Assembly: GCA_012932865.1 (NCBI GenBank)
Contig: SAXG01000016.1
Span: 248,001 to 312,000 of the forward strand
Direction of reading: 5' to 3'
DNA from: Amylostereum areolatum
Taxonomy: Eukaryota > Basidiomycota > Agaricomycetes > Russulales > Stereaceae
Length of the DNA stretch: 64,000 nt
The notes below the pieces were generated by a model, which ran no database searches, was not told where the DNA came from, and saw only the letters and a program-made list of their open reading frames with translations. This document shows, in pieces, positions 4,320 to 61,213 of this stretch. Position numbers and translations under genes: made by a program. Numbering within the stretch: the stretch's first letter is position 1; each line of letters begins with the position of its first letter.

Positions 4320-7300
4320 ATGGAGGGCCCACCACCCGATGCGGTCATTGATCCCGCCCTTCAGGAGCTCGAATCACAACCAGTGCTAGCCGCGCCAGCG
4401 GGCCCGCCTCCTGCCCCCTACCCCGATCATCCCCTCCAGCCACCGCCACTGGTCAGCGAGGATCCTGACTATCCCATGAACGGGACGGCCCCGACGGCGG
4501 AAACGCTGCACACGATGGCCGACGCGCAGACAACCGCCAACGAGCGCCAACTCAACGTCAACGACGCTCTCACCTATCTCGACGCCGTCAAGGCTCAGTT
4601 CAACGACAGGCCCGATGTCTACAACGTTTTCCTCGACATCATGAAGGAGTTCAAGAGTCAGGTGTACGTCCCGCCCTCCCTCATTCCGCGCCAAAGTCTC
4701 ATCCCAAGGCAGCATCGACACCCCCGGCGTCATCGCGCGCGTGGCCACTCTTTTCCACGGCCACCCCGCCCTCATCCAGGGGTTCAACACCTTTCTCCCC
4801 GTCGGCTACCGCATCGACGTCGGCTTGGACGCCCTCTCCGATCTCATCACGGTCACCACACCCACCGGAACCGTGCTTCAATCTACAACCATGGACGCCC
4901 ACCCGTCTCCGCTCCCACCCGCGCCCCCGCCACCCGAACCCCCTCTTATACCGGTCGCAGGTCCTTCTTCGGACCCCTCATGGGGCCATATTCCCCCATC
5001 ACTCCCCCCCACCTCCATCGAACACACCAGCGCAACACCCAGATTCGGCTCACCGGAAGGCAGCAGCGACGAACTCGAACGTCGTAGCCTTGGCCCGGCC
5101 ATGGACTACGTTCAAAGGATCAAGACGCGCTTCCACGACGACCCCGACACCTACAAGCAGTTCCTCGAGATTCTGTCCAACCACAAGTCCACGTCCAACA
5201 ATGTACGTCGGCCAACCTAACGGTCCTCCCCACGTGGCTGATTCCAGTCTACAGCAGGCGGAAGTGTTTGCACAGGTCGAAGAGCTGTTCAAAGACGCAC
5301 CCGACCTTGCGGCCGCCTTCCGCGATTTTCTTCCCGGCGTAGGCAGCGGGCGACCGGAAGACTTGGACGATTACCAGGCGCGAGGGATGGCCAGTCTCGC
5401 AAGCACCTCGGAGTCTCGGAGCGGGAAACGGAAGCATCCGGAGCCGCCCCTCGCCTCTTCCAGCTCCCAGCCCGCGAAACGGAAACGCAAAGCGGGCGAA
5501 AAAGAAAGGGAACGCGACCGGGAGGCTGCGCGTGTTGCCAGCAAGGTGCGTAGATGGGCTCCAGTGTGCGATCTCGCTCTGACGTCCCCATCCAGTCCAA
5601 AAAAACCAAGCAGTCTCACTCGCAAGCCGAGCCTTCCTCATCCTATCCATATACCACCGTCCCTGGCCCATCTTCTCCACGACGAAACCAACAAAACGGC
5701 CAGGGCTACGCTCCCGGCGGGGACGTCCAGTCCAACGGACAATCGCGAGGGGGCCGCGAAGACCCGCAGTTCTTCGACCGCGTCCGCCACGCGCTCGACT
5801 CGCGCGACACCTACGACGAGTTCCTCAAGCTCGTCAATCTCTTCACGCAAGACTTCATCGACCGGGCGCGCCTCGTGCGCGAGAGCCGGAGCTTCCTCGG
5901 CGACGGCGAGCTCATGCAGCAGTGGAAGGAGATCCTGGGCTGGGACGAGAACATGGAGCGCGCGGCGTTTCATCGCGAACGCGAGGAGGCGTATCCGCCC
6001 CCCGGGAGGCCGATGCCATTCATCGACAGGCCGAGTCGGGAGGAGCTCAACATCCGGTACGGCAGCTACCGCAAACTGCCCAAGGACGTGAGTGGCCTCG
6101 ATTTCGCTGCCCGCTGCTGGCATGCACTGACGCGTTCGCCGCAGGAGCAAAACGTCATGTGCTCCGGCCGCGACGACATGTGCAAGGCGGTGCTGAACGA
6201 CGAGTGGATCTCGCACCCGACGTTCGCGACCGAAGACGCGGGCTTCGTCGCGCACAAGAAGAACATCTACGAGGACGCGCTGCACCGGAGCGAGGAGGAG
6301 CGGCACGAGTACGACTTCCACATCGACGGCCTCGTGCGCACGATCGCGATGCTGGACCCGATCGCGGCGAAGATCGCGCAGCTGAGCGCGGAGGAGCGCG
6401 CGGTGTTCAAGCTCAAGCCCAACTTCGGCGGGTCGGGCAAGGCCATCCACCAGCGGATCATCAAGAAGATCTACGGGCGCGAGGCCGGGCTGGAGGTGAT
6501 CCAGGCGATGCAGGAGACCCCCGCGCTCGCGATCCCCGTCGTACACGGGCGGCTGAAGCAGAAGGAGGAGGAGTGGAAGCGCGCACAGCAAGCGTGGAAC
6601 CGGGTCTGGCGCGAGGTCGACGCGCAGAACTACTACAAGGCGCTGGACCACCAGGCGATCTCGTTCAAGGCGGCGGACAAGAAGGCGTTCACCACCAAGG
6701 CGTTCGTGAACCAGATCGAGGCGGCCATGGAGCAGCAGTTCGCGAAGCGGGCCATCCTCATCCACCCGGTGTTCGCGCGCACGCGCCCCCGCTATCAGAT
6801 GGAGTACGCGATCGTGGACATGGACGTGCTGCGCGACGTGCTGAAGCTGACGTTCTCGTACCTCGCGCGGCTGTCGAACACGCAGGCACGGCTGGACAAC
6901 ACGAAGCGGACGTGGGTCGAGACGCGGCTGTACAACATCGTGCGGTCGTTCTTCATGCTCCCCGACGGCTGGTTGAACGTCGAGGGCGGGCGTCGACTGC
7001 AAAATGGCCACGACAACAGCGCGCAGGACCACGGGGCGGCGACGAACGGCGCCAGCGGATCGCAGAAGGGCAAGTCCGCGCTCGGGAGCAACTTTTCGGG
7101 CGACCTGCGGAAGCATCTGCTCAAGAGCGAACAGGCCAAGTCGACGCGTGCGCAGGCCAGGTCGATGGGCTCGCCGTCGCCCATGGCATCTCGCATGGCG
7201 TCCCCGGCGCCTCCCGCTTTCGACGATGAGATGGCTGAACCTGCCGTGGATATATCGGCGTCGGCGTCGATCGGGGACGGCGTGGACAAACGTCCAGTAC

Positions 7301-9002: not shown

Positions 9003-11790
9003 TCACCCTCTCCCGCTTTCCTCTCTCTCGTTAATGTCGCGTGGGTTCACTTTGCTTCGAGCGATCATCAGTATGAATTTGGGGAGAAACACCGAGTGAC
9101 AATATGTGAACGTACCTTCCGATTCGTCAAGTAAATGTTCCTCCACAATCTCCGTCAACCTCCGCGCCATGGGCTCTATATCCGCATCCGCGAAGTTGTA
9201 GATGTTTCCGTTTTTCCCGGTCAAGCCATAGCTCTCGGTGATCTTCCGTTCAAGTGATGACAATAAATTATTGACGGCAGGATGGTCCACAACCTTCTTC
9301 AGCCTGATTCCGCAGGGCTCTGACTCCCTGTCCGCCGGTGGAAGGTTTGATGCGAGGATAACCTTGCGTTGTATGATAACGAGAACTAAAATGCAATGAC
9401 AAAATCAGGCTGCACGATGCAGAGGTCACGACATTCGTACATGCGGCGAAAACCACGGCCCTTCTACGGGACAACGACTGATGGAATACTTCTCATGAGA
9501 TCACATAGAATACGTAGCACAGCAACAACGGACTCACCACGTTGTTCGGATCGAGCTTTGATGCGCAGTGCTCGAGTAAAGCCTGAGCAAATCGTAAGTA
9601 AAAACAAACAAAGGAACGGACTTCATCAGTTTTCTTTCGTCGACATAGTAAGCTGACTTGCCCCCTGCATGTGCGTGGGTACACCACGGGCCTGATCAGT
9701 CATTGATGGCCAAGACTGTTGCTGGCCCACTTACAGCCTGGATGTCCACGCGTGGGAAATTGCCGTGATCAGCTCTCGACGACCGAGAGATTCACCGGCA
9801 CACTCACTGTCTGGATGTCCACACGGGCGGAATTGCCATGATCAGCTCTCGACGACCGAGAGACTCACTGGCACACTCACATCCTGGATGTCCGGGGGTA
9901 CAAAATCGCCGTGATCAGCTCTCGACGGCAGAGAGAGTCACTGGTACACTCACTTCCTGGATGTCCGCGCGTGCGGAATCGCCGTGATCAGCTCTCGATG
10001 ACCGAAAGAGTCACTGGTACACTCACGGCCCGGATGTCCTGGCGTACACAATCGCCGTGATCAGCTCTCGACGACCGAGAGATTCACTGGCACACTCACA
10101 TACTGGATGTCCGCGCGTGCGGAATCGCCGTGATCAGCTCTCGACGACCGAGAGAGTCACTGGTACACTCACTGCCTGGATGTCCGCGCGTACGGAATCG
10201 CCGTGATCAGCTCTCGACGACCGAGAGAGTCACTGGTACACTCACTTCCTGGATGTCCGCGCGTGCGGAATCGCCGTGATCAGCTCTCGACGACCGAGAG
10301 AGTCACTGGTACACTCACTGTCTGGATGTCCGCGCGTGCGGAATCGCCGTGATCAGTTCTCGACGACCGAGAGAGTCACTGGTACACTCACTGCCTGGAT
10401 GTCCGCGCGTACACAATCGCCGTGATCAGTTCTCGACGACCGAGAGAGTCACTGGTACACTCACTGCCTGGATGTCCGCGCGTACACAATCGCCGTGATC
10501 AGCTCTCGACGACCGAGAGATTCACTGGCACACTCACATACTGGATGTCCGCGCGTGCGGAATCGCCGTGATCAGCTCTCGACGACCGAGAGAGTCACTG
10601 GTACACTCACTGCCTGGATGTACGCGCGTACGGAATCGCCGCGGTCAGCTCTCGACGACCGAGAGAGTCACTGGTACACTCACTTCCTGGATGTCCGCGC
10701 GTGCGGAATCGCCGTGATCAGCTCTCGACGACCGAGAGAGTCACTGGTACACTCACGATCTGGATGTCCGCGCGTGCGGAATCGCCGTGATCAGCTCTCG
10801 ACGACCGAGAGAGTCACTGGTACACTCACTTCCTGGATGTCCGCGCGTGCGGAATCGCCGTGATCAGCTCTCGATGACCGAGAGAGTCACTGGTACACTC
10901 ACTGTCTGGATGTACACGCGTACGGAATCGCCGTGATCAGCTCTCGACGACCGAGAGAGTCACTGGTACACTCACTGCCTGGATGTACGCGCGTACGGAA
11001 TCGCCGCGGTCAGCTCTCGACGACCGAGAGAGTCACTGGTACACTCACATACTGGATGTCCGCGCGTGCGGAATCGCCGTGATCAGCTCTCGACGACCGA
11101 GAGAGTCACTGGTACACTCACGATCTGGATGTCCGCGCGTGCGGAATCGCCGTGATCAGCTCTCGACGACCGAGAGAGTCACTGGTACACTCACTGCCTG
11201 GATGTCCGCGCGTGCGGAATCGCCGTGATCAGCTCTCGACGACCGAGAGAGCCACTGGCACACTCACGGCCCGGATGTCCTGGCGTACGGAATCGCCGTG
11301 ATCAGTTCTCGACGACCGAGAGAGCCACTGGCACACTCACATACTGGATGCCCGCGCGTGCGAAATCGCCGTGATCAGCTCTCGACAACCGAGAAATTCA
11401 CTGGCACACTCACGACCTGGATGTCCGCGCGTGCGAAATCGCCGTGATCAGCTCTCAACGACCGAGGGTTATTGGCACACTTACTTCCTGGATGTCCGCA
11501 CGTACACAATGGACGCAATAAATTTTCAATGAATACAACAAAGTGCGAAAGGCAAAGGCCTCAGACTTACCGCCTGGATGTTCAAGCGTATGTGATTAAC
11601 TCTGCACTGTCATGGTTACACGCTGACACACCTCCTGTGTTTCGGCGCATTCAATGTTATCGTGATTACGTCCCGACTACTGAGGCTCGTAGGCAGACTC
11701 ACATACTGTATATCCGGTGCGTTCGTGTTACACTGAGTTTCAGTAAACACGTATGAGTCGACTCACTTCATGGGTGTCTCGAACCTTCAT
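9003..11790 (-). CDS. Microexon-array gene, copy A
   Basis: Reading on the minus strand, a 24-base leader exon (11790-11767, starting MKVRDTHE) is followed by about 29 tiny exons. All but two are exactly one codon long, each flanked by CAG (or a variant) and GTGAGT or GTAAGT. The first six encode Y, E, A, E, V, Y. After the array comes exon 9582-9538 (ALLEHCASKLDPNNV), then exons with RAVVFAA, VIIQRKVIL and the C-terminal helical part (HPAVNNLLSSLERKITESYG; DADIEPMARRLTEIVEEHLL). All of these have counterparts in copies B, C or D. Stop codons directly upstream of the ATG in the leader frame suggest this ORF starts here rather than being fused to the upstream GTPase, but one long transcript cannot be excluded. 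The exact 3' end is uncertain. The function is unknown. Confidence 0.62.
9720..11490 (-). repeat. Tandem array of 73-base intron-like units (array A)
   Basis: About 25 near-identical units recur with exact 73-base spacing. Read on the minus strand each unit is GTGAGTGTACCAGTGACTC..., then GAGAGCTGATCACGG (a branch-point-like CTGAT), then GCGCGGACATCCAG, then a three-base exon. The three-base exon is the most variable part (GCA, GAA, TAT, ACA, ATC, GTC, GAT, GCT), while the intron body is almost invariant. Because 73 is not a multiple of 3, the plus-strand ORFs crossing the array change frame at each unit and are not coding. Confidence 0.85.
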
Positions 11791-11805: not shown

Positions 11806-13280
11806 TCACACCTGCATATCAGCCCAATTCCATAAATACGTGCGCTTCAAATACGTACAGGAAGGAAGACCGCCGCGTGCCTCGCCACCGTCTGCTTTGT
11901 GATTTTTTTCACGCGGGAGGAGTGGTCTATATGCCGGCATTTGAGAGCTGAGCGTCGAGCCCACAGTTTGAACGAAGCGGAGGACACACAGATTCGATTT
12001 AGCAAACTGGTTGGAATGGTGAGCCGCGAGAACACTTCAGAGCATTGCGTTGAAACTCGCCTGCGAAAAACCCAGACAGTGCGCTCTGAAATATTGTTTC
12101 TCCATACTGTGACGAGTAGGGCTTGCATCTTGGATGACGGGAGGAGGTTTTGCGTGCGTGATATCAGATCTTGACAAAATGCCTCGCACTTCTCTTTGTG
12201 TTTTCGTTGTACGTTCTCATTGGGTTTTCGTAGACGTACGTTCTCGTCGGGGTTTCGTAGATCTATGCTGGCATGAACATCTTCACCGTGACGGGAAAGA
12301 GGAACCTACCTGGAGCTGTTATGCAGTTGGACTGCCGAAAACGGCCCGGATCGAGATTATTCCGGATCTTTTCTATACCTTGTTTGATAGCCTCTTCAAC
12401 AGCTGTTTTGGCCTTCTTCGATGCCTCCAGGGCGGTGCTCCCACCGTTGTTGCGTTCCTTGTTAAAAATATCGTTGTATATTGCGTCGGATTTCGTGAAG
12501 ATCGCGATGACGGGAACTGTCGTCGACCTTCAGTAAATCGCATGAGGAGATGAGGAACACTACCAGACCGCCGTGTGAGTCAACCCGGCAGAGTTTTTTC
12601 TCTGCATCTGAGAGCGGCCTATCGTTGTCGTCGAGTGATAGGCATATCCTGTTCGGTGGTGGCACGGCCCGGATGAGATCGATTCTATTCGGAGGGGGAA
12701 GCACAGGCTTACCAAATCGCGTGTAGTTGCTGGCGCTTGTCCTTCACCGACTGCGTGCGATCCCTCACAAACACCTCGATTGTGGTCACCTCAGTGTCTG
12801 CGCCTGACTCGAGGCCACGCGAGTCGTGAAAGACAAACCCGGGTAAAGATGGGAATACCATTGCATCCTCTATGTCATGGTTTCCCCGCTGCGCGTGTTA
12901 CTTTCAGTTCGTGAAATTGCGTAGGGGAAGAGGAGCGCCTTGGCATACCCCGCATTCTCCCTTCTCCATTCTCCGCTCGGTCTGTCGTAGTTGAAGATAG
13001 GGCATACTGAGAACGAGCTCATCGAAGACATATACAAACACACCAAGACTCCGTTTCGAAATATCTTGGCTTCTTCAACAGTGCTTTCGCAGAGCCTCTC
13101 GAGGATAGTCGTCTTCCCAGCGTTGGCTCGACCAATAATGAGAACGCGGAAGGGCACTCCACGGTCCACTATGTCTTCATGCATCCACTCTTCGGTCTCG
13201 GCTTCCTCGGCCATCGAATACTGCTCATCTCCGGTCGTAGGGGAAGGAGAATCAGGGGGTGAGATCTTGTTTTCGTTCAT
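11806..13280 (-). CDS. P-loop GTPase, microexon-linked type, copy A
   Basis: This is a predicted GTP-binding protein; its cellular role is unknown. Exon 1 (13280-13044) ends its domain start with the G1/P-loop RANAGKTT. A later exon has G3 as FHDSRGLESG and another has G4 as FTKSD. Further exons carry ITAP and LLPSSKMQALLVTVWRNN, shared with the copies at 53.8 and 59.8 kb. One intron after VFRR starts with GCGAGT, a GC-AG intron. The last exon reads ITKQTVARHAAVFLP and, after a final intron, GTG TGA stops the frame. It is transcribed divergently from the GTPase at 13,815. The microexon ORF starts 16 bases downstream of this stop, so the two may share a transcript. Confidence 0.72.
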
Positions 13281-13814: not shown

Positions 13815-15920
13815 ATGTCGTTCCCCTCGTCCCCCTCGCCCCCCTCCCAAGCACCGACCGAGCTCGTCCCCACCACCGACGAGCTCCTCCGCCAATGTCC
13901 GAAGTACGTGCAGTCCCCCGCTCCGCCAGATACACTGTAACCAGAGGATACTCTCCCGCGTCCTTGCAGACTTCGAATCTTGGTCCTAGGCAAGGTAATA
14001 GCCATCTTTCACTGTCCGCATTGTCTTCGACTGACGACCTGAAACAGTCCGGCGCTGGGAAATCCTCACTAATCAACCGCGTTTTTGGCGTCGGGGCCAA
14101 CGTTGCCGTGAGTGATAAGCTACTAGCATCCGTCATTGAGGGTACTGACGAGTCGTCACGCTAGAACGTCGAGCACGGCAAACGGGGCGAACATGATATC
14201 AACACCCCGCTTAAATGGCCTGGAAACAAGCACTTTATATTGCACGATTCGCAAGGCTTCGAGAGCGGAGAGAAACAAAACCTGCAGACAGTCCTCGATT
14301 TCATCGAGGAACGATCCAAAATGGACGCGCTCCAGGATCAGCTCCACGCTATCTGGTACGTGGCAGGCATGTCTTTGTTATCGATAGGCCTCTCTAAGTC
14401 CTCCAATAGGTTGTGTATAGCAATACCCTCCTCAAACGGAAGGGTGTTCGAGGCAGGCGATGAGCGACTCTTGAAAGACGTCGCAGGGACAGGTACGCAG
14501 TTTCTTCCCAGCCGTTCTATCACTCACCCGCGCGCACGCGCCGCATGTTAGTTCCGATCTTCGTGGTATTCACCAAGCTGGATGGCCTCTATACGAGCCT
14601 TGAAACTGAGCTAATGGACGAGAATGAGGCGGACTCTATTGACATGTCTGAGGAGGAGTTCAAGGAAGTTATTGATCAATCTCTGAATGATCAGGTTCAA
14701 AAGCTTTGCGTCGCTCCCCTCCGTGATATGAAGCCGCATGCGCAGTGGGCAGCGGTGTCAGGTGCGTATCTGATGTGTGGATCGATTGAACTTGCTCTTA
14801 TATATGATGTCTTTATCCATCCCGCACACGTTGTTCAGTCACGCCACTCCTCGAGGAAAAGAAAACTATCGAAGACTTCGTTTCGAAAGTTCTGGAGAAC
14901 CTGCCTGAGAAAGTATGGCTCACATGGGCTACGGCGCAGCGCGCCAACGCCAGCGAGAACATCAAGGCGTCCATTGTGTACGTTTTTTCATGTGCCCATC
15001 ACGAGTTCGACTGACGTCTGGCGTTCACGTACCCAGAGTTGGAAGGAAAAGTGCGCCCTTCTCTTCTCTCATCATATCGCTTCCTCAGTGATGCTCACCT
15101 AGAATATTGGCGTGGTCTCCTTTCCGATATCTTTATCGGCTTCTCGATGAAAAAATGCTTGGGTGTCCTTTGCAAAGACATCCTGCGCGTATGGAACATG
15201 AATGACCCTGATGGGGTACGCAAGCCTGTCGCTCACCGCTTCATGCACCTCACTGCTTATCCTGCGTAGCATCTGCGCGGCCCCGAATTTGCCGCTTTGG
15301 TTTCCATCATCGTGCAAGACCTTGACGACACCAACCCCACTGAGTGAGTTCGCATGCATGGCTACCCACACATCTGTGACGCAAATATCCTGGATTTTCA
15401 GATACACATGGACAAAACACGCTCTACGGGCGGCAGAGAATCACCCAGCGGCCGTCGTCTATGCCGCACCCGCCGCCGCCGTTATTTTCTTCGCCGAATG
15501 GGCCTGCATCACATTCAAGAAGAGGTAAGCATTTCTCGAGCCGACAACTTAAGATGATGACCGAGCTCCTACTTCAGCAAAAATTCCCTCCGATGTCTGA
15601 TGGGCTTCATCGTCGACCTCACGCTCACGTTGGACACGGTCTTCTGGCTCACGCAGCGCGCACCTGTCACCCGCAGGTCAATCAACACCGCGCTGAAGAT
15701 GTACAAGGATCGGAAGGGTCCGATTCATTTTAGCATCAAGACGTGGGTCGATGAGCTGGGCACATTGGAGCATCGAAAGTCGGACTACGTGATCGAGAAG
15801 ATCGAGAAGCTTATAGGTGAACATCGATTCGATCCAGAGGGACGCGCACGCGAGGGGATGCAGGGCGCGGATGAGGCGTGGTTGGATCCTCAGGAGCTTT
15901 GGAGTGCACCTGAACGGTGA
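13815..15920 (+). CDS. P-loop GTPase, second type, copy 1
   Basis: A predicted membrane-associated GTPase of unknown role. The P-loop is split by an intron: LRILVLGK, then SGAGKSSLINRVFG. G3 is FILHDSQGFE and G4 is VVFTKLDG. Later exons contain QWAAVS, a 14-base exon (about 15031-15044) before YWRGLLSD, then SMKKCLGVLCKDIL. A hydrophobic hairpin-like region (VVYAAPAAAVIFFAEWAC) and a second hydrophobic segment after GFIVDLTLTLDTVFWL lie in the C-terminal half. The last exon ends WLDPQELWSAPER. All splice phases agree with the paralogue at 51,176-53,291. The start ATG (MSFPSSPS) matches the paralogue's start region. Confidence 0.75.
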
Positions 15921-22292: not shown

Positions 22293-23010
22293 TCACTCTT
22301 CATGAAGAAGATTGTCCCCGACAATCTCCGTCAACCTCTGTGCCGCAAGTATCACATCCTCCTCTGCGAGTTGGCTTCCGTGTTTCGCGTCGGCGCAATA
22401 GCTCTCCGCAACCTCCCGTTCGAGCGCAGATAGAGCATCCTCGACGGCGGGATGGCCCATGACCTTCTTCAGCTCGCGTCCGTAGGGTAACATCCTGCCA
22501 GCTGGCAATTTTGTCGTGAAGATGACTTTGCGTTGGATGATAATGAGGACTGAACCGCGATAATGAGATAAGGGCACACGAGGGAGACGACACAGAATTA
22601 AAATCCATACACGCAGTGAAAATGACAGCCCTTCCACGAGACAGCACCTGAAGGAAACGCCTTCCGTGAGCGTCCAGAGCGCAATACGACAATTTGCAGC
22701 ATGGAGAGCTCACCGTGTCATTCGGATCGAACGCCGGTGCACAGTGTTCGAGCAAAGCCTGGGCCGATCATCAGCGAAATTCAGAAGCGACGGTCGAGAT
22801 GGTCATTTAATGTACACGGTCCGTCAGTCACCTGGAAGTTGAGAGAACTTACCGCCTGTGATGAAAAATACCGATCTGAGTCAGCGAGTTACTTCATAGA
22901 GTACGATCCATGGTACATACCGCCTGGAGACCGGTGGGTGACGGAATGATCAGTTCTCTACCATTGATGTGGTCACAGGCAAGCCCACCTCCTGTATGTC
23001 CGCGCGTACA
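22293..23010 (-). pseudogene. Truncated microexon-array gene, copy D
   Basis: On the minus strand this is the 3' end of the same family as copies A, B and C. Three single-codon exons (GAG near 22991, GCG near 22921, GCG near 22850) precede the exon ALLEHCAPAFDPNDT. Next come RGRAVIFTA, LIIIQRKVIF, and the C-terminal part HPAVEDALSALEREVAESY ending NLLHEE. There is no leader exon, no full array and no adjacent GTPase: upstream the sequence turns abruptly at about 23010 into transposon-like DNA. The C-terminal half is intact, so truncation by insertion is more likely than gradual decay. Confidence 0.6.
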
Positions 23011-23614
23011 TCTGTAAAAACCTCTCGTGCGAATTGGATCTTTTTGGAGGATATTGGACCTAAACGGCGAGTTAGAGGATTTGACGTGTTTAGGAAGGTC
23101 CTCTTACTACTAGATCTAATTTAGCGGCTAATGGTTTCTCAAGACGGTACAATCTCGGTCCAGCCGCACACCAACAGTGGTCTCAAACTGATCTCAACAG
23201 CATCCAAGCATTTTCACAACATAGGTTTGGTTCACTTTTAGATACCGTTGTCCTGCCTTTGTCACGGCTTTTGGGGCTTGCTCAGACACCATTAGAGAAA
23301 CCGGGTATCCATTTTTCATACATTAGCACGAGGCACGGATTGTAAACTAAGCGTTAATGAATGAGCGGAGGGGGGGGATGAAGCTACGGATGCGAGGGGA
23401 AATAGAGCAGGAGCGAGAACCATTGTACACGAACACATATTACGAGAATCGACTAAAGCGGAAGTGAACGTAAGCGTAGCGGGAGGGGGACACACATCTA
23501 CTCATCATTATAGTCAATCAATGCAGCAGGAACACCGGGGGCGGGCAGCACCGACAAAGGGCCTGTTCTAGACAGATAAATGAGTGGAATGGATTGAAAA
23601 GCTAGGGAAACAAC

Positions 23615-26032
23615 TTACAAAGCCGCCGTGTACAAACCGGACATGAAGCTGTGGTAGAACGGGGGGCGAGTGTTCTCCATCTCGTTCAAAGTGGCAATAT
23701 GGCCACCGTACACATCCAGGTATGTCCCCGCCGAGAAATCGGACTTGACATGATGCCCGGATCGACGCTCGTGCAGAGATGCGTAAACCTACACAAGGAT
23801 AAGCAAAGGTTTATCATATTGAGATCAAAATGAGTCACTCACCGCTGTAAATGCCAGTGCAACCATTGCCTTCGGGAGCTCGATGCGACGCTCGTTAGTT
23901 ACCGAGTCAATTGTAAACGGGAGCCTATCGCGGAAGCCGTCCGGAATTCCCTTTGCGAAAATGGTCTGGTGAAGAATTGTGATCCCGATTGGGTGACGGT
24001 AAGGTTGACCACGGCGCACAGCCCCAGTCAACCCATCCTACAGTATGATACTATAAGTCAGTAGAAACCCACAGAGACATGACCAGTGAAAACACACCGG
24101 AGAGTTGCGACGGAATATGTAGTTATAATCCCGGACAGCGAAAGCTACTGCCGCTTGACTCTGCTCCCCTTCAGGAAGCAGGTTGTACATTCCGACGATG
24201 TGATTGTCGCTGGATTCCTTGAACTTCAAGCGAAAGATACCAATGCGAGCGATGGGCTAGTACAAAATGGTCTGAGAACCGTGCTGCCAGGAAAAATCCA
24301 AACTGACTTACCAAGGGAATGAGACGGTTGATGTACCCGGGTTCCTGGAGCAAACGGCGGTGCATGTCGATACAGACATCGCGGAGAGACGCCGCTCGGA
24401 TCAGTGCATTGCGCGAGAATGTCTCACTGAGCGTCGCATCGGGAAACCCGTGGACTAGAAGGATCTCGTATATAATCTGAACGAAAGCGCCGCGGATTCC
24501 AAGTTGAACGATGTGCGATTGCACTCGAAGTGACATCCGCTGATGTGGGCCTCCCAGCACCAAGTTTGTATTCTCCGGAAACTCGCCTCCGACCGTTGCT
24601 GGTGGAAGGTTGATCACGCCGGCCGCTAGAGGACCTTCAGCATCAGAGACAAATCGGTCGCCTATGAGACCTAAAATTCGCCAAAGGTATCTCTGGCGGA
24701 CATTACCTCCAGTGGTATCTTCGTTAACTTGGACCTGCTCTCCGAGGGCAGCATCAACAGCTGTGACAGGAAGAGCCGTGGAAGGAGCCGTGGCAGGAGG
24801 AGGAGCCGTGGCGGCGGCGGCGGCAGCGGCAGCGGCAGCGGGTGGAGCGGCGGCAGCGGCGGCGGCAGCGGATGGAGCGGCGGCAGCGGTGGCAGAAGCA
24901 GCGGTAGTGGCAGCGGATGGGGCAGCGGCAGCGGTGGTGGCAGCGGCAGCGGATGGAACGGCGGCGGGGACAGAAACAGGAATGGGTGGAGGAAGAGGAG
25001 CCGAGACCGGGGCAACAGGAGGGACGGCGGACGGAGGAGAAGGAGCTGTGTTAGAAGTCGACGGTCCCGCAACGGCTTGAGGGGCATCGAGGCGACTCAG
25101 GCAAGGATCAATGGGAACGAAAGATGGGCTTGAAGACGCAGCCGAATTTGCACTGGAGAGCCATGTAGGACGCTATAGTATCCGTTAGCATGCTGCACTT
25201 GAGGAGGTTAAGGACAACACATACCTCGAGGTTCACCTGACGCTGGAACTGCGTCGGGTTCGTCTTCGCCAACTCGTCCCCGTCGTCATCTTCGATCGCG
25301 TCAAAATCGTCTTCGGAGAGCGGCGAGAGGCCGTTATCGTCGTCATCGTCGTTTTCGTCCTACAAACAAATCCGTCAATCAGCAACTCGGAACCTGATAC
25401 AAAGTGAAAGTTATGTACCTCAATCATGGCAACACCTGTGTGACCCGAGGTAACCGCCTTTGCCTTGCCTTTCGTCCCGTCCACGTAGAGCTTGAGTGCA
25501 ACCGGTGGAAGCTCGTCCTCTTGAAGAACAAGCTGAGGAGCGCGCGCTAAAGAAAGTGGAACGACAATGTCAGCCCGTGGGAACACACGCGATTGAACGC
25601 GAACGTACTCACACTTCCGAGTTTTTGACTTCTTCGCCGCTGGGCCATTGGCCTGAACACCTTTCCCCCCCTTTCGTTTCTTGCCCGCAGCTAAAGGAGG
25701 GAAGTGTGAGCGTCGGAAGACACCAACAAAGACAGCAATACAACATACCGGCAGTAACAGGCTCGGATGCAACATCTATTTCGGCCACGGCCCACGGAGC
25801 CAGCGGAAAAAAAATGGTAAGTGGTCTGTGATTCGATGGGAAAAGCTATTGACGTACCATCCACAGGAGCTTGCTCTCGCTGTAATTGCGCTGCAGCGGC
25901 AGCCTTCGACGCCTTGGTGCGAGCACGAGTAGCAGCAGCCTTCTGCGCTGGCGAGAGTGCCGCGCTGGCGGTCCCAGAGGCCGAGGAAGTGTTGCGCTGC
26001 GACGTTCTCAATGTGCGTGACTGGTAACTCAT
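23615..26032 (-). CDS. DUF6532-type protein with Ala-rich linker
   Basis: A multi-exon minus-strand gene starts at 26032 (MSYQSRTLRTSQ). The N-terminal part is basic (AAATRARTKASKAAAAAQL, then KKRKGGKGV) and acidic (DENDDDDDNG), as in nuclear proteins. A Pro/Ala-rich linker (25080-24780) leads to the domain: LVLGGPHQRMSLRVQSHIVQ, GFPDATLSETFSRNALIRAA, AFAVRDYNYIFRRN, then KAMVALAFTAV and FYHSFMSGLYTAAL at the end. I read this as the fungal DUF6532 domain from memory of the family; its role is unknown. Its position beside, and divergent from, the transposase suggests it travels with the element. Confidence 0.65.
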
Positions 26033-26348
26033 GCCGTTGACGGGGGGGACGGAAAAGAAAAAGAGGGGAGAAGGAAAGTGGGGAAGAGGAAGAAGAGCGA
26101 GGATGCCTGTCGACACGGCGAGGTGAGCGTACAAATATAAGTCCTGCGCCGTTTGCTGACATGGCCGTAGGTTTCGTAATAGTGCGGGCTCTGCGGAGCG
26201 TGAGCACTCTCACGTCTGGTGGGGTCTTGGTGAGTTTTAGACGGACTTGGTGAATTTAGGCGGCTGATTTCCTCCGCGCATAGTGAAATTGGATATAACG
26301 CACCCTTCTCTCCTCCACATCACGACCTCCAACACACGCTGTATCCTC
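26033..26348. promoter_or_regulatory. Intergenic between divergent DUF6532 and transposase genes
   Basis: This 316-base gap separates two divergent start codons within the transposon region. No ORF is seen. A shared promoter is inferred only from layout. Confidence 0.35.
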
Positions 26349-29300
26349 ATGGCGTATCAGCTGCCCACAGCCAAGGCTTCCGTAGTTTGCAACGGATGCA
26401 GCAAAAACTTCTCGCCGCGCGGGCGTACAAACCACTGGAGACAGACTGCGCGCGAGGAATGCAAAGCTGCTCACACCGCATACCAGGCTCTTCAAGAAAG
26501 CCTGTTCCCCGGTCTTATGGCACCGCCAAATCCTCAAGTTGCGGAGAACCTATCAGCAGAGAACACGGGCGTCGGCGCAGACTACTTTTCGGAAAGTTAT
26601 ACACCTGCCGAACTCGGACTCGACAATCCAGCTGGCAACACTGCCGATAATCCTCGTGCAACTCCTATGGATGTCGACAATGTTTTTCCGGCTCCTATGT
26701 CGGTCTCTGACAGGAATCAAGGAACCACGGAAGAAGATGAAGCGGATGAAGAGGAGGATGTGCGAAACTTTGAGGAGCTCGGGCGCGTCTTGGAGCCCGT
26801 AATCAACCCGAATGCACCCCAATCGGCGCCAGGAGAACTGCCTGCAGACGAACTAGCGGCTCCGCAAGATACTTCTGGCCGCCTCTTTACACCCGAAGAA
26901 CGGCAACGTGTTGAAGGAAAGCTCTGGGTGCACCCGACGATCGTGCCGTTCCCGAGCGAGAGCGCTGGCGCACCTCTCACTTTAGAGGTATCTGCGTCAC
27001 AGTACGACACTCTGCGTTCGCATTTGGAATCTGGGAGTGCGGGAAACATCTGGGCACCGTTCAAGTCGAAACTCGACTGGTCCATGGCTTACTGGGCCAA
27101 AACACGTGGGCCAACATCGACCGCGGTCTCTGAGCTCCTCCAGATGGACGAGGTATGCATCCAATTGCCAGTGATCACGCGTCAAGTTCAATGCTCATTA
27201 CCCTCTTTTACTTAGCTTGCCGAGAAACTCGACCTCTCATTCTGCTCGTCGGCTCAGCTCAACAAGATCATCGACGAACAACTGCCTGGTCGGCCGAAGT
27301 TCACGATGGAGGAGATCCAGGTCGGTGGCGAGAACTTTGAGGTGTACTTTCGCGACATTGTTCCTTGCATCCGCGCGCTGTACGGCGACCCCGAATTTGC
27401 GCAACACCTGATCACGGTCCCGGAGCGCCACTACCAAGATGCCGACATGACGATTCGGATGTACGATGAGATGAACACGGGCACTTGGTGGTGGAACGTG
27501 CAGGTGCTTGGCATCATCTTCTACGGTTCCCTCCTCCGACCTAACACAAATTTTCTCTTCCGCAGACAAGCATTGAGGCAAAACTCCCTGGCGCAACAAT
27601 CATCCCCCTCATCATATCATCAGACAAGACTCAGCTCACGCTCTTTCACGGGAAGACAGCATACCCGGTCTACATGACAATCGGAAACATCCCGAAGGAC
27701 ATCCGTCGCAAGCCCTCCCGTCGGGCGCAAGTCCTCATTGGCTACCTGCCCACAGCAAAACTGGACCACATCTCCAACAAGGCTGCCCGACGCCGTGCAA
27801 CCGGCAACATTTTCCATGAGTGCATGCGTCGGATTCTTGCACCCATCAAGGACATCGGAGAAACCGGAATCGCCATGGTCAGCGGTGATGGCGTTTGGCG
27901 TCGCTGTCATCCCATCTATGCTATATTCGTTGGGGATTATCCGGAGCAGGTTCTTGTGACGGCAACACTCTATGGTGACTGTCCAAGATGTCCGATTCTG
28001 CACGCTCTTCTCGGAGAGTACGATGATGACACAGACCTCGATTTCCGTGATGCCGACGACGCATTGGACGTCTTTGAACTGGCCGATGGTGATCCCACAA
28101 CCTACCACGCTGCATGTCGTGAGGCGCGCCTCCGCCCTATCTTCCATCCGTTCTGGGAAGATTTGCCCTATGTAAACATCTTTGCCTCATGCACACCCGA
28201 TATCCTCCACCAGATGTATCAAGGAGTCATCAAGCATGTCATTGCATGGATTTCGGACCCGCAAGCATTTGGGCCCGACGAAATTGATGCCCGTTGTCAT
28301 CGGATGCCACCCAACCACCACGCTCGCCTCTTCACACATGGGATCAGCTCGCTTGTCCGGGTGTCGGGTACAGAGCACAAGCACATCGCGCGCATTCTCC
28401 TTGGTCTGATTGCAGATCTTCCTCTCCCAGATGGCCGCAGTCCTGCCCGCCTCATCCGCGCCGTTCGAGGAATTCTCGACTTCCTCTACCTTGCCCAATA
28501 TCCATCCCATACCGATGAAACCCTTGCGCAGATGGACGATGCTCTTCGGCGCTTCCACGACAATAAATCGATCTTCATTGATCTCGGAATCCGGCTGGAT
28601 TTCAACCTTCCGAAAGTTCATGGTGCACGGCACTACTCGCCAAGCATCGTGCTCTTCGGTACAACAGATAACAGCAACACGGAGCAATCGGAACGCCTGC
28701 ACATCGACTTTGCGAAAGACGCGTACAGGGCTACCAACCGAAAAGATGAATATCCACAAATGACGGCATGGCTCGAACGTCGCGAGAAGGTCAACGCGCA
28801 TGCGGCGTTCATTCAGTGGCGCTCTTCGGGGCACCCTCCTATCACTTCGGAACGGACACCAGAGGTGCACCTTCACATGCACACCCAGATGACGAAACAT
28901 CCAACACTCCCAGCCGTCTCGTTCGATCGACTCCATGAACTGTACGGCGCCGTTGACTTTTCCGATGCACTCGCAGCATTCATTGTCAAGTGTAACTACC
29001 CAGATCTCGGTCCTGGGCCCGCGCGTCACGAAGCTGATAACACACTCATCCCGACCAGACCTATCGCCGTGTATCACAAGATTAAGCTCTGGAATCACGA
29101 CGCTCTGCAACGCGAGGACGGAAAAGACGAGCAAGATGCTGTCCATGTTCGCCCTCAGCGGCGGGACACCCGTGGACGTATCGTTCCCGGTCGGTTTGAC
29201 ACCGTGTTGGTTAAATCGGGAGCTGGAGGTGCTCGCGGCGTAGCAGGTGAGCTTTGCTGCTCGTCTGAGATTTCACCGCTGACCGGTCATGACCAAGGCT

Positions 29301-29656
29301 ACCGCGTCGCACAAGTGCGCGTGGTCTTCCGACTATCTGCCAAGACGGCCGACACCGTCTACCTACCCACACGTCCGACACCCCCACAACACCTTGCCTA
29401 CATCGAGTGGTTCACGCCGTTCGCAAAGGAGCCAGAAGATGACACACAGATGTACCGTGTGTCTCGTTCCGTGCACAATGGGCGACGCGACGCCGAAATC
29501 ATCCCTATCGAAGACATCCAACGGAGTGTCCAGCTCTTCCCGCGTTTCGGTGCGACCGCTCCCCGTCATTGGACAAGCTATAATGTCCTTGAGGAGTGTA
29601 CTAAATTCCGTGTCAGCTCATTCCTCGATCACCATACATACAGGACCGTATTTTAG
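26349..29656 (+). CDS. Plavaka-family transposase
   Basis: A cut-and-paste DNA transposase. The N-terminus holds a CxxC zinc-finger-like stretch (VCNGCSKNFSPRGRTNHW). Exons are 26349-27152, 27216-27503 and 27566-29656. The last holds the family core: YMTIGNIPKDIRRKPSRRAQ, AIFVGDYPEQVLV (including the intervening D-rich segment), PDILHQMYQGVIKHVIAW and FTLERSERLHIDF-like positions (here EQSERLHIDFAKDAYRATN). A 51-base segment near 29248-29298 starts with GTGAGC, ends in AAG and is a multiple of three, so it may be an optional intron. The frame is fully open, so the gene may still be active. A near-identical partial copy is at 62,999-64,000. Confidence 0.85.
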
Positions 29657-29770
29657 CCCGAGAGTCCGTACAATGACAATGTGTGTAACCTCTAAAAACC
29701 TCGGACTTGACTTAGACACCTTTTGACGTACTAGACCGCCTTAGAGGGCACCATCTAAACGGCACGCTAA

Positions 29771-31145
29771 TTAGAGGACCTTGGCGCGGCATTTGCGGGA
29801 GAGGCTTTCCCTGATGTCTTTGTACAGCGCCTTGACGGCCTTCGCCAGGCCCTTAGGGCATTTCGGCGAGGATGGCGCGGTTCTAGTTATGATGGAACCA
29901 TAATGCAGACTCTGCTGAGAAAGGCTCAGTACTATGGCACACTAGATTTGAGGATAAGGAACGCACATCAAAGCCCTCGATGGTTTTCACATGGCGCATG
30001 GCGAGCTCCGGAGTGACCACACACTTGTACGTGCCGAGGTATTGAAAACCAGAACTCTTCGTGTGGAAGAAAACATCGCGCGTTTTGCCTTCTGAGACCG
30101 GGAAGACTGTTTTATTCCAGCCGCAGCCGCCCTCGTCGATACCAGCTTTGGAGGTGAAGTGGAAGGCGGGCATGGTGACGACTAGGTGCGTAAAATCGGA
30201 TTTGGGAAAGATAACCTCGCTATAGCGAAGTATGAGGGTGCCATCGACGCATTTCGACGCGCTGTACACTTAGCTTTAGTAAAGCTTCTCAGAATGACAA
30301 GAAACGCGTGGTTTACTTAACGCCGGCATCCTAGGATCCGGGAAGAGTTTACACTCAGTTCGATGGTTCACCGAGCCAGGTTTACCGACGTAACTGACCT
30401 TCGCCATATTGAAGCTCGAGTTCCCGGATTTGGGAAGGGTTCGAAGCGCAGAAGGTTTGGGCTGCTTGCTCATTGGCTCATATGCTTTCGAAAGGAATTC
30501 TCGCCATCGTTGCTGTGCCTGGCATTTTGTTAGAGCATACGCTCCTGCGTGATGAAGATCGAGCTCACATGCTGTGGTGAGTCTTGGAGAGCGATTTCCG
30601 TCGCTGCGATAGCATTGTCGCGTTCCGTGCGCAAGACTTCTAGTGACTGTCGGGGCCGGTCAAGATCTCTGTTCAGCTCCTTCGACGACGGCTTTCACAA
30701 ACCGTGATTTTCTCCTGATGGGATGTCTTCAGAGCCTTGTATTTTTCGCGGACCGAGGAGAGCTTGTCTTTTAGCTGGTTTACTTCGGCGTTCTGCCAAC
30801 CCTGTCAGACGATATGGAGGACGGAATGGGAGGCGCAAGTGTTACATCGCTCTGCACCGTGGACGCGTTTTTCAGCTCGGCGAGCTCCTTCTTCAAGTCT
30901 TCAACATTCGCGACGAGGGCATGGTTCACGCCCCGAAGTCTCTGAAGTTCCTCCGGCTGTCCAGAAGCCTCTGTTTTTACACCAGAACACTGCAAGGACA
31001 GGCGGATGAACTCGCGAGACTACGAGAGTCGTCGTGAGTGGAAACCAGTGCTCACCTTACAAGCTTGCAACTTTCGCTTTAAGATATCGATCTCACTGCT
31101 CTGATACTTACATAGGTCTCGGAAGAGCTGGGGATCATTCTGCAT
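29771..31145 (-). CDS. Coiled-coil protein with DUF6697-like domain
   Basis: On the minus strand the gene starts at 31145 (MQNDPQLFRDLCKYQ). The N-terminal exons are heptad-rich (RLRGVNHALVANVEDLKKEL; LKDKLSSVREKYKALK), so a coiled coil is likely. The C-terminal half (WREFLSKAYEPM; TKSSGFQYLGTYKCV) resembles the fungal DUF6697 domain, a family of unknown function recalled from memory. The frame needs a one-base change or an unusually short intron near 30690-30712. The last exon (about 29925-29771) ends DIRESLSRKCRAKVL. Its final 15 codons lie inside sequence shared with the transposon copy at 62.8 kb. The gene is convergent with the transposase. Confidence 0.5.
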
Positions 31146-51175: not shown

Positions 51176-53291
51176 TCACGCTGTTCCCGTCGTCAGAAGC
51201 TCCTCGGGATCCAACCACGCCTCATCGGCGGCTGACACTCCTCCTCGTGTGTTCCCTTCCGGATTGAAGCGATGCTCCTCGATAAGCCTTTCGATTCTTG
51301 TGATCGCGTGGTCCGGTTGTAGACGCTCTAAGGATCCCAGTCCTTCGACCCATGTCCTAATGCTGGTATGAATGGCGCGCTTTCGACGGTTGTACATCTT
51401 CAGGGCAGTGTTAAGCGATTTGACCGTGAGAGGTTCGTCCGGATCTTGTTGCGTGAGCCAAAAAACCGTGTCCATCGTGAGCGTAAGGTCGACGATGAAG
51501 CCCATGAGACATCGAAGCGACGTTTTGCTGATATAATCATTAATGTTTGAAGCAATGGCCTCGAGGGATGCTTACCTCTTCCTGAACGTCTCGTAGACCC
51601 ATTCGGCAAAGACAACTACGGCGGCGACGGGCCCGGCATAGACGATCGTCGCTGGATTCTCTGCTACCGCCTGTAAAGCGTTTTTTGATCGCTTGTACCG
51701 ACTGAGACGAGAAGGATATTCAAGCTCCAAATGTATGGATGCTGGGCGGAGGGCGGACTTACTCTCTTGTCGCGGTGTCATGGAGATCCTGTACTACGAC
51801 GGAAACCAAAGCGGTGAATTCGGGGGCGAGAAGATGCTGTGATGGTGACGGAGGAGTACTTAAGATAGGCGAACAGACCGACGGATGCGCCGACATACCT
51901 CGTGAGGATCGTTCATGTTCCATACGCACAGAATGTCCTTGCAAAGGACGTCTAGACATCTTTTCATCGAGAACCCGAGAAAAACGTCTGAAAGAAGACC
52001 GCGCCAGTATTCTGTGGGGATGTCATGGCAGCGAGAATGAAGGAGAAAAAACAAACAGGCATACTCTTCTTTCCAACTCTGGGTACATCAGCGCCGGGCA
52101 TCAGTAAAGCTCATGATAAGAACACGAATACGCACATGATGGATGCCTTGATGTTCGCGTTGGCGTTGGCGCGCTGAGCCATGGCCCATGTAAGCCACAC
52201 TTTCTCCGTCAGGTGTTCCAGAACTGTCGAGATGAGACCCTCGATCGTTTTCACATATAGTTCTTGCTTGGTCTTAACTGAACAGCGTGCACGGAATGGA
52301 CGCGGAATATCAGAAGATCGTCATGTTCCAGCCGCCCGTAGTTGAGAGTACGTACTTGACACCGCTGCCCATTGATACGGCCGCACTGCCTGAAGAGCAT
52401 AAAGCGGCTCGATGCATAGCTCCTGAACTTTATCGTTCACGGCGCTGGAAACAGCCTTGTCGAACTCTTCGTCGGACATGGATTCCGCCTCTTCACTCTC
52501 ATCAAGAGCCTGCTGGATTCGCATGCGAAGGATGTCAAGCTTGGTGAACACCACGAATATCGGGACTAAGGGATGCGCGCGCGGGTCAGGAGTCAGTATA
52601 CCAAGGAACGGCTTGGGGAAGATGCGTCACACCTTTTCCCTCTACTTCTCGCAGAAGTCGTTCGTCGCCTGTTTCGAGCGTCCTTCCGTTGGCGAATGGT
52701 ATTTCTATACACAACCTGGTTGTATCGTTGGATCATTGAAGGTCATCCGTCGACATGAAAACAGACAGCGCACCAAATAGCATGGAGCTGGTCCTGAAGG
52801 GCAGTCATCTTGGCTCGTTCGTCTATAAAATTGAGGACTGTCTGCAGATTTCCTTCCTCTCCGCATTCGAAGCCTTGCGAGTCGTGCAGCACAAAGCGGT
52901 CGTTTCCTTTCGATGTAAGTGGAGTGGTGATATCATGAACACCCGAGGAGTCGAACTGGACGGTCTAGTAGTGAAATGCATTAGTATTGCCTCTTGACCA
53001 CAGGAGGAAAAGATAATTTACGGTGGCTTCCACGCCAAAAACGCGGTTTATCAGTGCGGTTTTTCCAGCCCCAGCCTTTTTGAGCTCCTCAATCGTGGTG
53101 AAGACACAGTAGACGGCGAGAGAGTGCTGTTACCTTGCCTAGGACCAAGATTCGCAGTCTGCGTGGATATGATATACCGTCAAAGAAGCATCACGAAGTA
53201 GAGAATGCACATACCTCGGACATTGACGGAGAAGCTCGTTGGCGGTGGGGACGAGCGCGGTCGGTTCTTGAGGATGGTGCCAGTGAGACAT
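51176..53291 (-). CDS. P-loop GTPase, second type, copy 2
   Basis: Minus-strand paralogue of the gene at 13,815. It starts at 53291 (MSHWHHPQEPTALVPTANEL). The split P-loop reads LRILVLGK, then AGAGKTALINRVFG. G3 is VLHDSQGFEAG and G4 is FTKLD. A 14-base exon precedes YWRGLLSDVFLG; the intron after it (GTATGCC...CCCACAG) is conserved in position with copy 1. The hydrophobic C-terminal part (FIVDLTLTMDTVFWL) and final exon (WLDPEELLTTGTA) match. The role is unknown; membrane association is inferred from the hydrophobic segments. Confidence 0.73.
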
Positions 53292-53757: not shown

Positions 53758-55102
53758 ATGTACGAAAGCAAGGTTGAACATACCGACCTCTCAATGGCAT
53801 CGGAAGACTACGAAAGGTATACATTGTACTTGGAGGAAGAGACGGAGACGGAAGGGTGGACACAAGCCGTAGTCGACCCCGGAGTGCGCTTTCGCGTTCT
53901 CATTCTCGGGCGAGCCAATGCGGGCAAGACAACTATCCTTGAAAGGATCTGTCAAAGGACTGTTAGCGAAGCCCAGATCTACCGGAGTGGGCAACTGGTA
54001 AGGATGTTCACTTTGGCATGGATATATTTTATCACACATACCCATTAGACTGCCCAACGGATGCAGAAGGGCGAGCGTGGGGTATGCCAGTCCATTTCCT
54101 ATCTTATCAGTCACTCGACACATATAACAGCGTGGGCAACACAACTTAGCAGATGAAATCGCATTCCCGTCGTTACCCGGATTTATCTTCCATGACTCGT
54201 GCGGTATCGAGGCGGGTTCATCCAACGAGACGGCCGCAATCGAGAGATTTGTGAAAGACCGCTCCCTTTTAATGAAGGATAAGCGTAAGCAACTACATGC
54301 TATCTGGTACTCTTAGCCCTCTCCCACTGGAATCTGAACTGATTCGCATCCAATCGGACACAGGATCTGCCTGCCACTCGACACCGACAGACCACTACTG
54401 CAAGCAGAGAGAGACCTATGTCGACTCGACTCCGGAGATGGTGAGTGCTCTTGACCACGTCATGCGACATACTGAAGACGATCGCAGTTCCCCTTGTCGT
54501 AATCTTCACAAAACACGATGCGCGATACACGAAAGTTCTTGCGGAACTGAGCAGGCAGCGTGTCCGATTCCGCCGGCCGCGCGGCAATGAGGAAGGTCAA
54601 AGCAGACGCTCAAGAACACGTCAGACAATGGATAGAAAACATTCGGACCACTTTGGATGCGGACCGTCTTCATCCGTCCGCCTACATGACGGCTCCAGGT
54701 AAAGTATGTGTCTCCTTCGTTGCGGAGCTAATATCCACGCCATTTTAGATCTACAAGAACCTAGCGAGACGAGCGAGACGTTCTGCCAGGATCTGATATC
54801 ACGCACGCAGAGCCTCTTACCGTCGTCAAAGATGCAGGCGCTGCTTGTTTCAGTCTGGAGGAATAACATCTCAGGACGCAGCGTCTGGATTTTCCGCAGG
54901 TATGTTTTTGCGTGGTGCTCTGACCCGTGTGACGTCGTGGCTGAAATGCTGAACTCCTCTACCAGTTTGCTAGATCAGATTCGTGTGTGCTCTGCCACTC
55001 ACAATGTCCACACCAAAATCATGTCGACGTTTAGGTGGATTTTCTCCAATAACAAAAATCACAAGGAGAATCGTGGCAGGATTCGTCGTGACCTTCCTTC
55101 CG
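53758..55102 (+). CDS. P-loop GTPase, microexon-linked type, copy C
   Basis: Same family as the GTPases at 13,280 and 59,765. Exon 1 (53758-53997) contains FRVLILGRANAGKTTILERI (P-loop). Then come an exon with AQRMQKGERG, an exon with FIFHDSCGIEAGSS (G3 as DSCG), CLPLDTDRPLLQAERD, and VVIFTKHDARY (G4 as TKHD). Next are RAAMRKVKADAQEHVRQWIE, SAYMTAPG and LLPSSKMQALLVSVWRNN. Between TKHD and RAAMRK the sequence is four bases longer than in copy B, giving a frame conflict near 54545-54580. The last recognisable exon ends TFLP at 55102; the true stop is uncertain because the next exon is shared territory with the microexon ORF. Confidence 0.65.
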
Positions 55103-55156
55103 GTACGTATTTTGCGACAAGCCGTCGATAGCATTGCTCTAATATGCAGCGTGTAA

Positions 55157-61159: not shown

Positions 61160-61213
61160 GTATGTGTTTCAGTAACAGGTATCGGTAGGATGACTCTGAA
61201 TCGCAGGATCCAA

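Follow-up and report, generated by a model that had tools for sequence, protein, structure and literature searches.

A 64,000-nt stretch of the genome of the basidiomycete Amylostereum areolatum (positions 248,001 to 312,000 of contig SAXG01000016.1, termed C66 below; the whole stretch is called the window) carries a P-loop GTPase gene, copy A, in which 29 consecutive microexons, predicted from DNA like all microexons described here, are very probably spliced unit by unit. The array of microexons (array A) lies between the GTPase part of the gene and a C-terminal part. The initial annotation had pointed to two related copies, C and D, in the window. The same anatomy is found in both, and also in three copies outside the window, one of which is damaged. 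In the genome, the pattern of two introns separated by a 3-nt exon is restricted to this GTPase family, the frame is open, and paralogs with diverged introns still show the pattern. These observations make splicing of the units, and inclusion of the array codons in the mRNA, by far the best explanation, which we hold with high confidence, and a satellite confined to one intron is unlikely.

The GTPase part of copy A (11859–13280, minus strand) starts at 13280 and comprises eight coding exons: 13280-13044, 12981-12949, 12888-12713, 12648-12569, 12516-12310, 12262-12061, 12006-11990, and 11947-11859. The last of them closes in phase 0 after the residues ...ITKQTVARHAAVFLP and is followed by an 18-nt leader exon (11767–11784, minus strand; VRDTHE) behind the acceptor AATGAAG. 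The GTPase part and the leader together form an open frame of 353 aa with no stops. Array A (9662–11705, minus strand) runs from TAT at 11705-11703 to GGG at 9664-9662. It is composed of 27 microexons of 3 nt and two of 12 nt (11279-11268 and 10038-10027), and its predicted peptide, YEAEVYDIRAAIYATEIEAYAATEAYDIRAEDTAG, has 35 residues. All 27 single-codon exons are sense codons, as the initial annotation had stated, and the phenomenon extends to loci outside the coordinates given there. The number of units, 29, was also correct, but their supposed uniformity was not: two units have 12-nt exons, and the donors vary, one of the 30 being GC. In these two units, the acceptor CAG has changed to CGG, and the AG available 9 nt upstream results in the 12-nt exons GACATCCGGGCC (DIRA). 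The tryptic peptide AAIYATEIEAYAATEAYDIR of copy A would be put together from 18 separate predicted exons (7 to 24).

Three coding exons follow the array (9116–9582, minus strand): 9582-9538 (ALLEHCASKLDPNNV), 9477-9441, and 9385-9116, with SLSRRRAVVFAA... read after ALLEHCASKLDPNNV. They are entered in phase 0 and contain no stops. The acceptor at 9582 was placed by homology; the splice-site search had it 27 nt later. Tandem Repeats Finder reports a 73-bp array at 9728-11503 with 24.4 copies and 90% matches. The array introns (58–83 nt) are about as short as the other introns in the copy A model (42–74 nt), suggesting that each is probably recognized on its own, presumably by intron definition. 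In the consensus intron of array A, inspection by eye shows the branch-like CTGATCA immediately preceded by a perfect 6-bp stem (CTCTCG/CGAGAG), for example at 10829-10760.

A splice-site search that made no assumption about exon length recovered the arrays as long chains of 3-nt exons. The scores were 328, 274, and 198 for A, C, and D, and 27 of 33, 23 of 31, and 14 of 23 exons in the respective chains were 3 nt long. In shuffled sequences, made for C and D only (20 each), the best scores were 82.8 and 72.5, and exons of 3 nt accounted for 4 of 229 and 6 of 138. Among 50 stretches of 2.5 kb (25 per strand), the maximum score was 40.0 where no part of an array was present; those with array parts gave 64.1 (fragment B, described below) and 47.9 (the edge of array A). 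Array C (55255–57049, plus strand) should be noted. It has 26 microexons of 3 nt, with the predicted 26-residue peptide YEEDLGFERDFAFQRHDGRLFGDEVD, and its introns (58–83 nt) are almost unrelated to one another, their interiors being 0.509 alike as compared with 0.472 after shuffling. Copy C is therefore the key case: hardly any repeat is left among its 26 introns, and the 3-nt exons remain. Splice signals decaying together with the repeat, as in an intronic minisatellite, are not seen in C, though decay of this sort is visible in the damaged copy P2. The proposal of consecutive one-codon exons in an open frame thus gains strong support from the comparison of paralogs, and we infer that the codons are included in the mRNA.

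In the whole genome (57.1 Mb, 182 contigs), the family consists of six copies, all on C66, five with readable arrays and one damaged. The readable arrays have 53 (P1), 29 (A), 26 (C), and 18 (P3) microexons, and 17 plus a cut-off end (D). In copy P1 (C66:199239-205.05 kb), the GTPase part is open and the array has 52 microexons of 3 nt plus one of 9 nt. In copy P3 (C66 239-242.4 kb), several frame disturbances can be seen by eye in the GTPase part, and the acceptor after the array was moved by homology. Copy P2 (C66:229500-232200) has lost donors and acceptors in its array and is included in no microexon count for that reason. At an E-value threshold of 0.001, the GTPase part had 30 matches and the C-terminal part 7, all of them on C66 and on a 13-kb contig, C86. 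The two-step 3-nt-exon pattern matched the genome at least 85 times, always in this GTPase family or its C86 copy, and a reversed control gave no match. With the one-step pattern GTGAGT-N50-80-CAG-Nx-GTGAGT, whose counts are likewise lower bounds, x = 3 gave 73 matches against 4 in the reversed control, 72 of them in the family or its C86 copy and one elsewhere. Other spacings gave 2 against 1 (x = 4), 2 against 1 (x = 5), and 1 against 7 (x = 6). A stray fragment of an array unit, with acceptor, CGA, donor, and most of an intron, was observed on another contig (L032 about 4471-4540; C96:686.47-686.54 kb), and no convincing GTPase match was found in the 9 kb examined there. The array pattern was found in 10 contigs of IMG/VR, none of which exceeds two consecutive unit spacings.

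The curated set contains 143 microexons (29 in A, 26 in C, 6 in D1, 11 in D2, 53 in P1, and 18 in P3, where D1 and D2 are two parts of the array in copy D), and the three of fragment B are outside it. All 143 are multiples of three, 138 being 3 nt long and five 9 or 12 nt, and their introns are 53–106 nt long. Frame 0 contains no stop, whereas the base composition of the 138 triplets themselves would predict about 4.4 (P 0.012, an approximate value since related units are not independent). When the frame is shifted, stops appear in all six arrays at +2 and in three of the six at +1. An AG lies 9 nt upstream of the lost acceptor in the two units of A, which are likely related, and in one unit of D1, so that the frame is kept. 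The dN/dS ratios before the array are 0.30–0.31 in three pairs, with 0.31 for copy A against both D and P1. After the array, they are 0.23–0.45 in ten pairs, with 0.25, 0.28, 0.35, and 0.45 for copy A against C, P1, P3, and B. These values are rough since synonymous differences are high for most pairs (0.48–0.67; 0.24 for A and P3). Judging from the sequences, the coding exons flanking the array on both sides are in phase 0 and under purifying selection.

In unit-by-unit splicing, the spliceosome would remove the introns of about 70 nt one by one, and each unit of an intron plus a codon would add one amino acid. The segment encoded by the array would connect the GTPase part to the C-terminal part, its length being set by the number of units (21 residues in P3, 26 in C, 35 in A, and 55 in P1). 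A donor located three bases past an acceptor can hardly be bound simultaneously with that acceptor, and neighboring introns, three bases apart, are therefore likely to be removed one after the other. Since duplication of a 73-bp unit adds one residue and skipping of a 3-nt exon stays in frame, the segment can vary between paralogs and possibly between transcripts. The segment may be a fast-evolving surface for interaction or recognition, as proposed for the truffle NACHT-ankyrin genes. By analogy with these genes and with the Podospora WD-repeat genes, a role in recognition is plausible. A broader proposal is tentative and, on balance, doubtful: the arrays might be an independent second fungal system of codon-by-codon splicing, in which unit duplication, homogenization of introns that leaves codon differences in place, and unrestricted skipping among as many as 53 microexons would yield a nonself-recognition surface variable at both the DNA and RNA levels.

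The microexons could instead be spliced without their amino acids being relevant, the array acting as a slow-splicing timer or as a source of unproductive transcripts. Retention of an intron does usually bring an in-frame stop (28 of 29 introns in A, 21 of 26 in C, 4 of 5 in D1, and 8 of 10 in D2), and the predicted peptides differ widely in length and composition, as such an RNA-level role would allow. However, it leaves unexplained the absence of stops in 143 microexons and the residues partly shared at the array ends. Arrays A, C, P1, and P3 open with TAT, D1 with AGA, and P2 with GAT. At the other end, the closing three residues are alike in P3 (E-V-A), C (E-V-D), and B (E-A-A), with K-L-A in P1 and T-A-G in A, so that the array ends look constrained in part. 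The exon columns are, moreover, the three most variable of the 73 columns among 20 units of A, which would be odd if the residues were irrelevant. We regard an exclusively RNA-level role as unlikely.

The family assignment rests on Pfam MMR_HSR1, which scores 24.0 bits in A and 23.1 bits in D (cut-off, 21.9), and on the P-loop motif GxxxxGKT, present as GRANAGKT and GRANSGKT. With Pfam up to E = 1, neither NACHT nor ankyrin was found, and nSTAND_NTPase5 was far below its own cut-off (E 0.038 in A and 0.15 in D). Many fungal G-domain proteins are found among the relatives in the protein database (120 of 460 listed), and the best is the A. chailletii protein P0001 (94%). P0001 keeps the 42 nt at 11989-11948, treated here as an intron, in the same frame, and at its end reads through the donor after FLP. 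Another A. chailletii protein, P0002, matches P1 and reads ...FLPISYHE across the leader junction, using the AAG acceptor. A third, P0121, is the C-terminal part of another copy, similar to P3, annotated as its own gene. A fold search with a structure model of P0002 (mean pLDDT 79) gave EngB first, followed by immunity-related GTPases, MxA, and mitofusins, at TM-scores over the query of about 0.3–0.4, that is, at the general level of a G domain only. The C-terminal tails of Mycena GTPase relatives align poorly with those of A. areolatum.

These public models bear on the possibility of two genes, in which the GTPase would end at the array and a second gene would start with its own ATG at the conserved AATGAAG and continue through the microexons. 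The models P0001 and P0121 do end or start near the array. AATGAAG is present in six of seven leaders (window 11791-11785, minus strand; 55156-55162 and 61213-61219, plus strand), with AATGAAAACGAAG in D2, and in each of them the ATG is in phase 0 with the leader donor. The leader, however, follows the GTPase frame. Behind AATGAAG (ACGAAG in D2), it is 18, 18, 18, 21, 15, 15, and 18 nt long in A, C, D1, D2, P1, P2, and P3, a multiple of three in all seven, and P0002 splices at this AAG. The search chose the same acceptor in five of the seven (A, C, D2, P1, and P2). The nearer CAG was also tried as the leader acceptor and rejected: it gives lengths of 45, 31, 31, 28, and 32 nt in A, C, D1, P2, and P3 with inconsistent phases, it brings a stop in A, and it is missing in P1 and D2. 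The leader, taken in the initial annotation for an exon starting with ATG, is thus more likely an internal exon, of 18 nt in copy A, behind the AAG acceptor (AATGAAG|), and two separate genes are quite unlikely. The conservation of AATGAAG exceeds what an acceptor needs, and the motif might also serve as an internal start codon.

If array A were instead a satellite inside one 2-kb intron, the last GTPase exon would be joined directly to ALLEHC and the internal splice sites would be inert relics. The flanking exons, both in phase 0, would keep the frame when the array is skipped, and array A is a clean tandem repeat. In C, however, and less markedly in D and P3, donors, acceptors, and the 3-nt spacing stay usable between diverged introns, and losses of acceptors are paired with new ones that keep the frame. 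An intron of 2 kb would also be exceptional for such a fungus. We consider the satellite very unlikely.

The evolution of the units was compared between A and P1. The exon columns, the most variable in A, rank 1, 2, and 11 among 27 units of P1. Among 30 pairs of A units with identical flanks (30 + 30 nt), the codons differ in 24, and in 12 of these pairs all three bases differ; units with the same codon nevertheless have somewhat closer flanks (permutation 0.0075). In P1, the codons differ in only 10 of 42 pairs with identical flanks, and codon and flank are linked (permutation 0/2000), as expected from plain unit duplication. The units thus seem to multiply locally, and the codon diversity of array A seems to have outlived homogenization of the introns. 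The pattern in array A could reflect selection that favors codon differences, or else short conversion tracts lying within introns. Introner-like elements, that is, near-identical introns inserted between successive codons of an older exon, would fit the separate histories that the 24 differing pairs in A suggest for intron and codon, but are hardly credible given the codon-flank linkage in P1, the exact 3-nt spacing, which is unexpected from dispersed insertion, and the consensus introns, which match only arrays A and P3 and the stray C96 fragment (A consensus) or only P1 (P1 consensus) rather than unrelated genes.

Several points weigh against unit-by-unit splicing and against the integrity of the family. 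The case for splicing is a prediction from genomic sequence. Some microexons had to be set by hand: 3 of 26 in C (where the search supplied the other 23 and preferred 22, 30, and 20 nt), 2 of 11 in D2 (the first and the last, with GC donors, besides nine from the search), 3 of 18 in P3, and 1 of 53 in P1. The search prefers other leader acceptors in D1 (the CAG, giving a 31-nt exon) and in P3 (a later TAG, giving an 11-nt exon). The GTPase parts of C and P3 have frame disturbances, and the P2 array has lost several splice sites, so that some members may be pseudogenes or affected by errors in the assembly. In the public annotation of A. chailletii, one gene stops at the array (P0001), and the C-terminal part of another copy is a gene by itself (P0121). 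Of 81 candidate proteins, the C-terminal part matched a single one, from A. chailletii, and a set of 598 longer candidates yielded no match; accordingly, no intron-less relative displays the joined peptide.

In copy C, the GTPase exons and the leader lie at 53758–55180 (plus strand), with the frame disturbance in the exon 54488-54698. The coding exons after the array (57133–57592, plus strand) are 57133-57177, 57233-57269, and 57326-57592, and the first acceptor after the array was placed by homology, the search having put it 12 nt later. An alternative frame in the last GTPase exon of copy C seemed conserved until the extra intron after the 17-nt exon was found, and was then rejected. This intron is recognized in A, C, D, and P1; P0002 splices there, whereas P0001 does not. 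Upstream of copies A and C, a duplicated stretch was also observed (window 13829-15899 and 51197-53289, 69% identical), so that the duplication unit is larger than the GTPase gene.

Copy D has its GTPase exons and leader at 59765–61237 (plus strand) in an open frame of 333 aa. Its array is divided into D1 (61318–61705, plus strand), with five microexons of 3 nt and one of 12 nt, and D2 (62033–62782, plus strand), with 11 of 3 nt. Between them, an internal duplication (61703-62035) places a 39-nt exon and a second leader after the six microexons. At 61949/61950, CACCAG directly adjoins GTAAGT, as for a zero-length exon (recursive splicing), and a 4-nt exon from the splice search in D2 was dropped and treated as a zero-length exon. 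The last D1 microexon appears altered in C86. D2 is cut at 62838 by a mobile-element-like repeat of 6.8 kb. The two copies of this repeat, at window 23005-29817 (C66:271005-277817) and from 62838 to 64000 and on to C66:317650, are inverted and 99.97% identical. Fragment B (22293–23008, minus strand) is the 3′ end of D's array with the C-terminal exons, moved off by rearrangement, and its microexons are GAG at 22991-22989, GCG at 22923-22921, and GCG at 22855-22853. The segment between the two repeats looks inverted, which would have split copy D from its 3′ end B. In C86, D's array runs into B uninterrupted and without the repeat, though C86 itself is rearranged in the 5′ part of D. A third, partial copy of the repeat is located at C66:168001-171026, and a further inverted pair of about 6.8 kb, 99.97% identical, at C66:321750-328515 and 329434-336199.

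A three-base exon is close to the smallest that a spliceosome can define. If spliced as predicted, arrays of up to 53 consecutive microexons would allow ordered, intron-defined splicing, and the keeping of the frame across more than fifty junctions, to be tested in a natural setting. They would also place codon-sized exon arrays outside the truffle receptors, in a second phylum and a different nucleotide-binding family, a hint that fungi may have come to this means of varying a protein more than once. The arrays further explain why public gene models stop or start there.

Of the known systems, single microexons of 1–3 nt in plants, Drosophila, and mammals indicate that spliceosomes can include exons this short (PMC8831610, PMC8042270). 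As far as these sources describe them, they stand alone or beside one or a few others, in contrast to the chains of 18 to 53 here. The Schistosoma mansoni micro-exon genes (MEGs) resemble the present family in having many very short exons and in being clustered. Their exons, held in the initial annotation to be longer, are given as 3–81 bp in the abstract and as 6–81 bp, mostly 15, in the introduction, so that the statement was only roughly right; they encode secreted proteins and have introns of 0.1–5 kb, unlike the family here, where 138 of 143 microexons are 3 nt and the introns are 53–106 nt (PMC10526429). In the basidiomycete Phanerochaete chrysosporium, cytochrome P450 genes contain microexons of 2–10 aa (shortest exon, 6 bp) with introns of 45–55 bp, which are similarly short, but in the account available these are single and spread over the genes, with no array described (PMC1184071). 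Introner-like elements likewise comprise many near-identical introns, though spread over genes and not in the tandem arrays of one family (PMC4457414). The Podospora WD-repeat (HNWD) nonself-recognition genes also have tandem units that concerted evolution keeps similar and that contain variable codons, but their unit is a protein repeat, as against an intron plus one codon here (PMC4986451). Among the papers listed by searches of the open-licence PMC literature, no report of codon-sized exon arrays in basidiomycetes was found.

The closest precedent is the nank (NACHT-ankyrin) genes of the truffle Tuber melanosporum, with alternatively spliced, codon-sized (3-bp) microexons (Iotti et al. 2012, as cited in PMC4986451, PMC10197012, PMC9815663, and PMC3689799). 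One-residue exons, regarded as extraordinary in the initial annotation, are therefore of a kind already known. Judging from these citing papers, both cases involve a filamentous fungus, an expanded family with a nucleotide-binding domain, and dozens of 3-bp exons, which in the truffle are said to diversify the C-terminal part. The arrays here are comparable in size: P1, A, C, and P3 have 53, 29, 26, and 18 predicted microexons, almost all of them 3 nt long. Alternative splicing has been reported in the truffle, whereas the Amylostereum arrays are genomic predictions. The truffle genes are NLRs with NACHT and ankyrin, whereas the basidiomycete P-loop GTPase has neither by Pfam. As the host family and the phylum differ, the Amylostereum arrays are a separate case, in a basidiomycete GTPase family.

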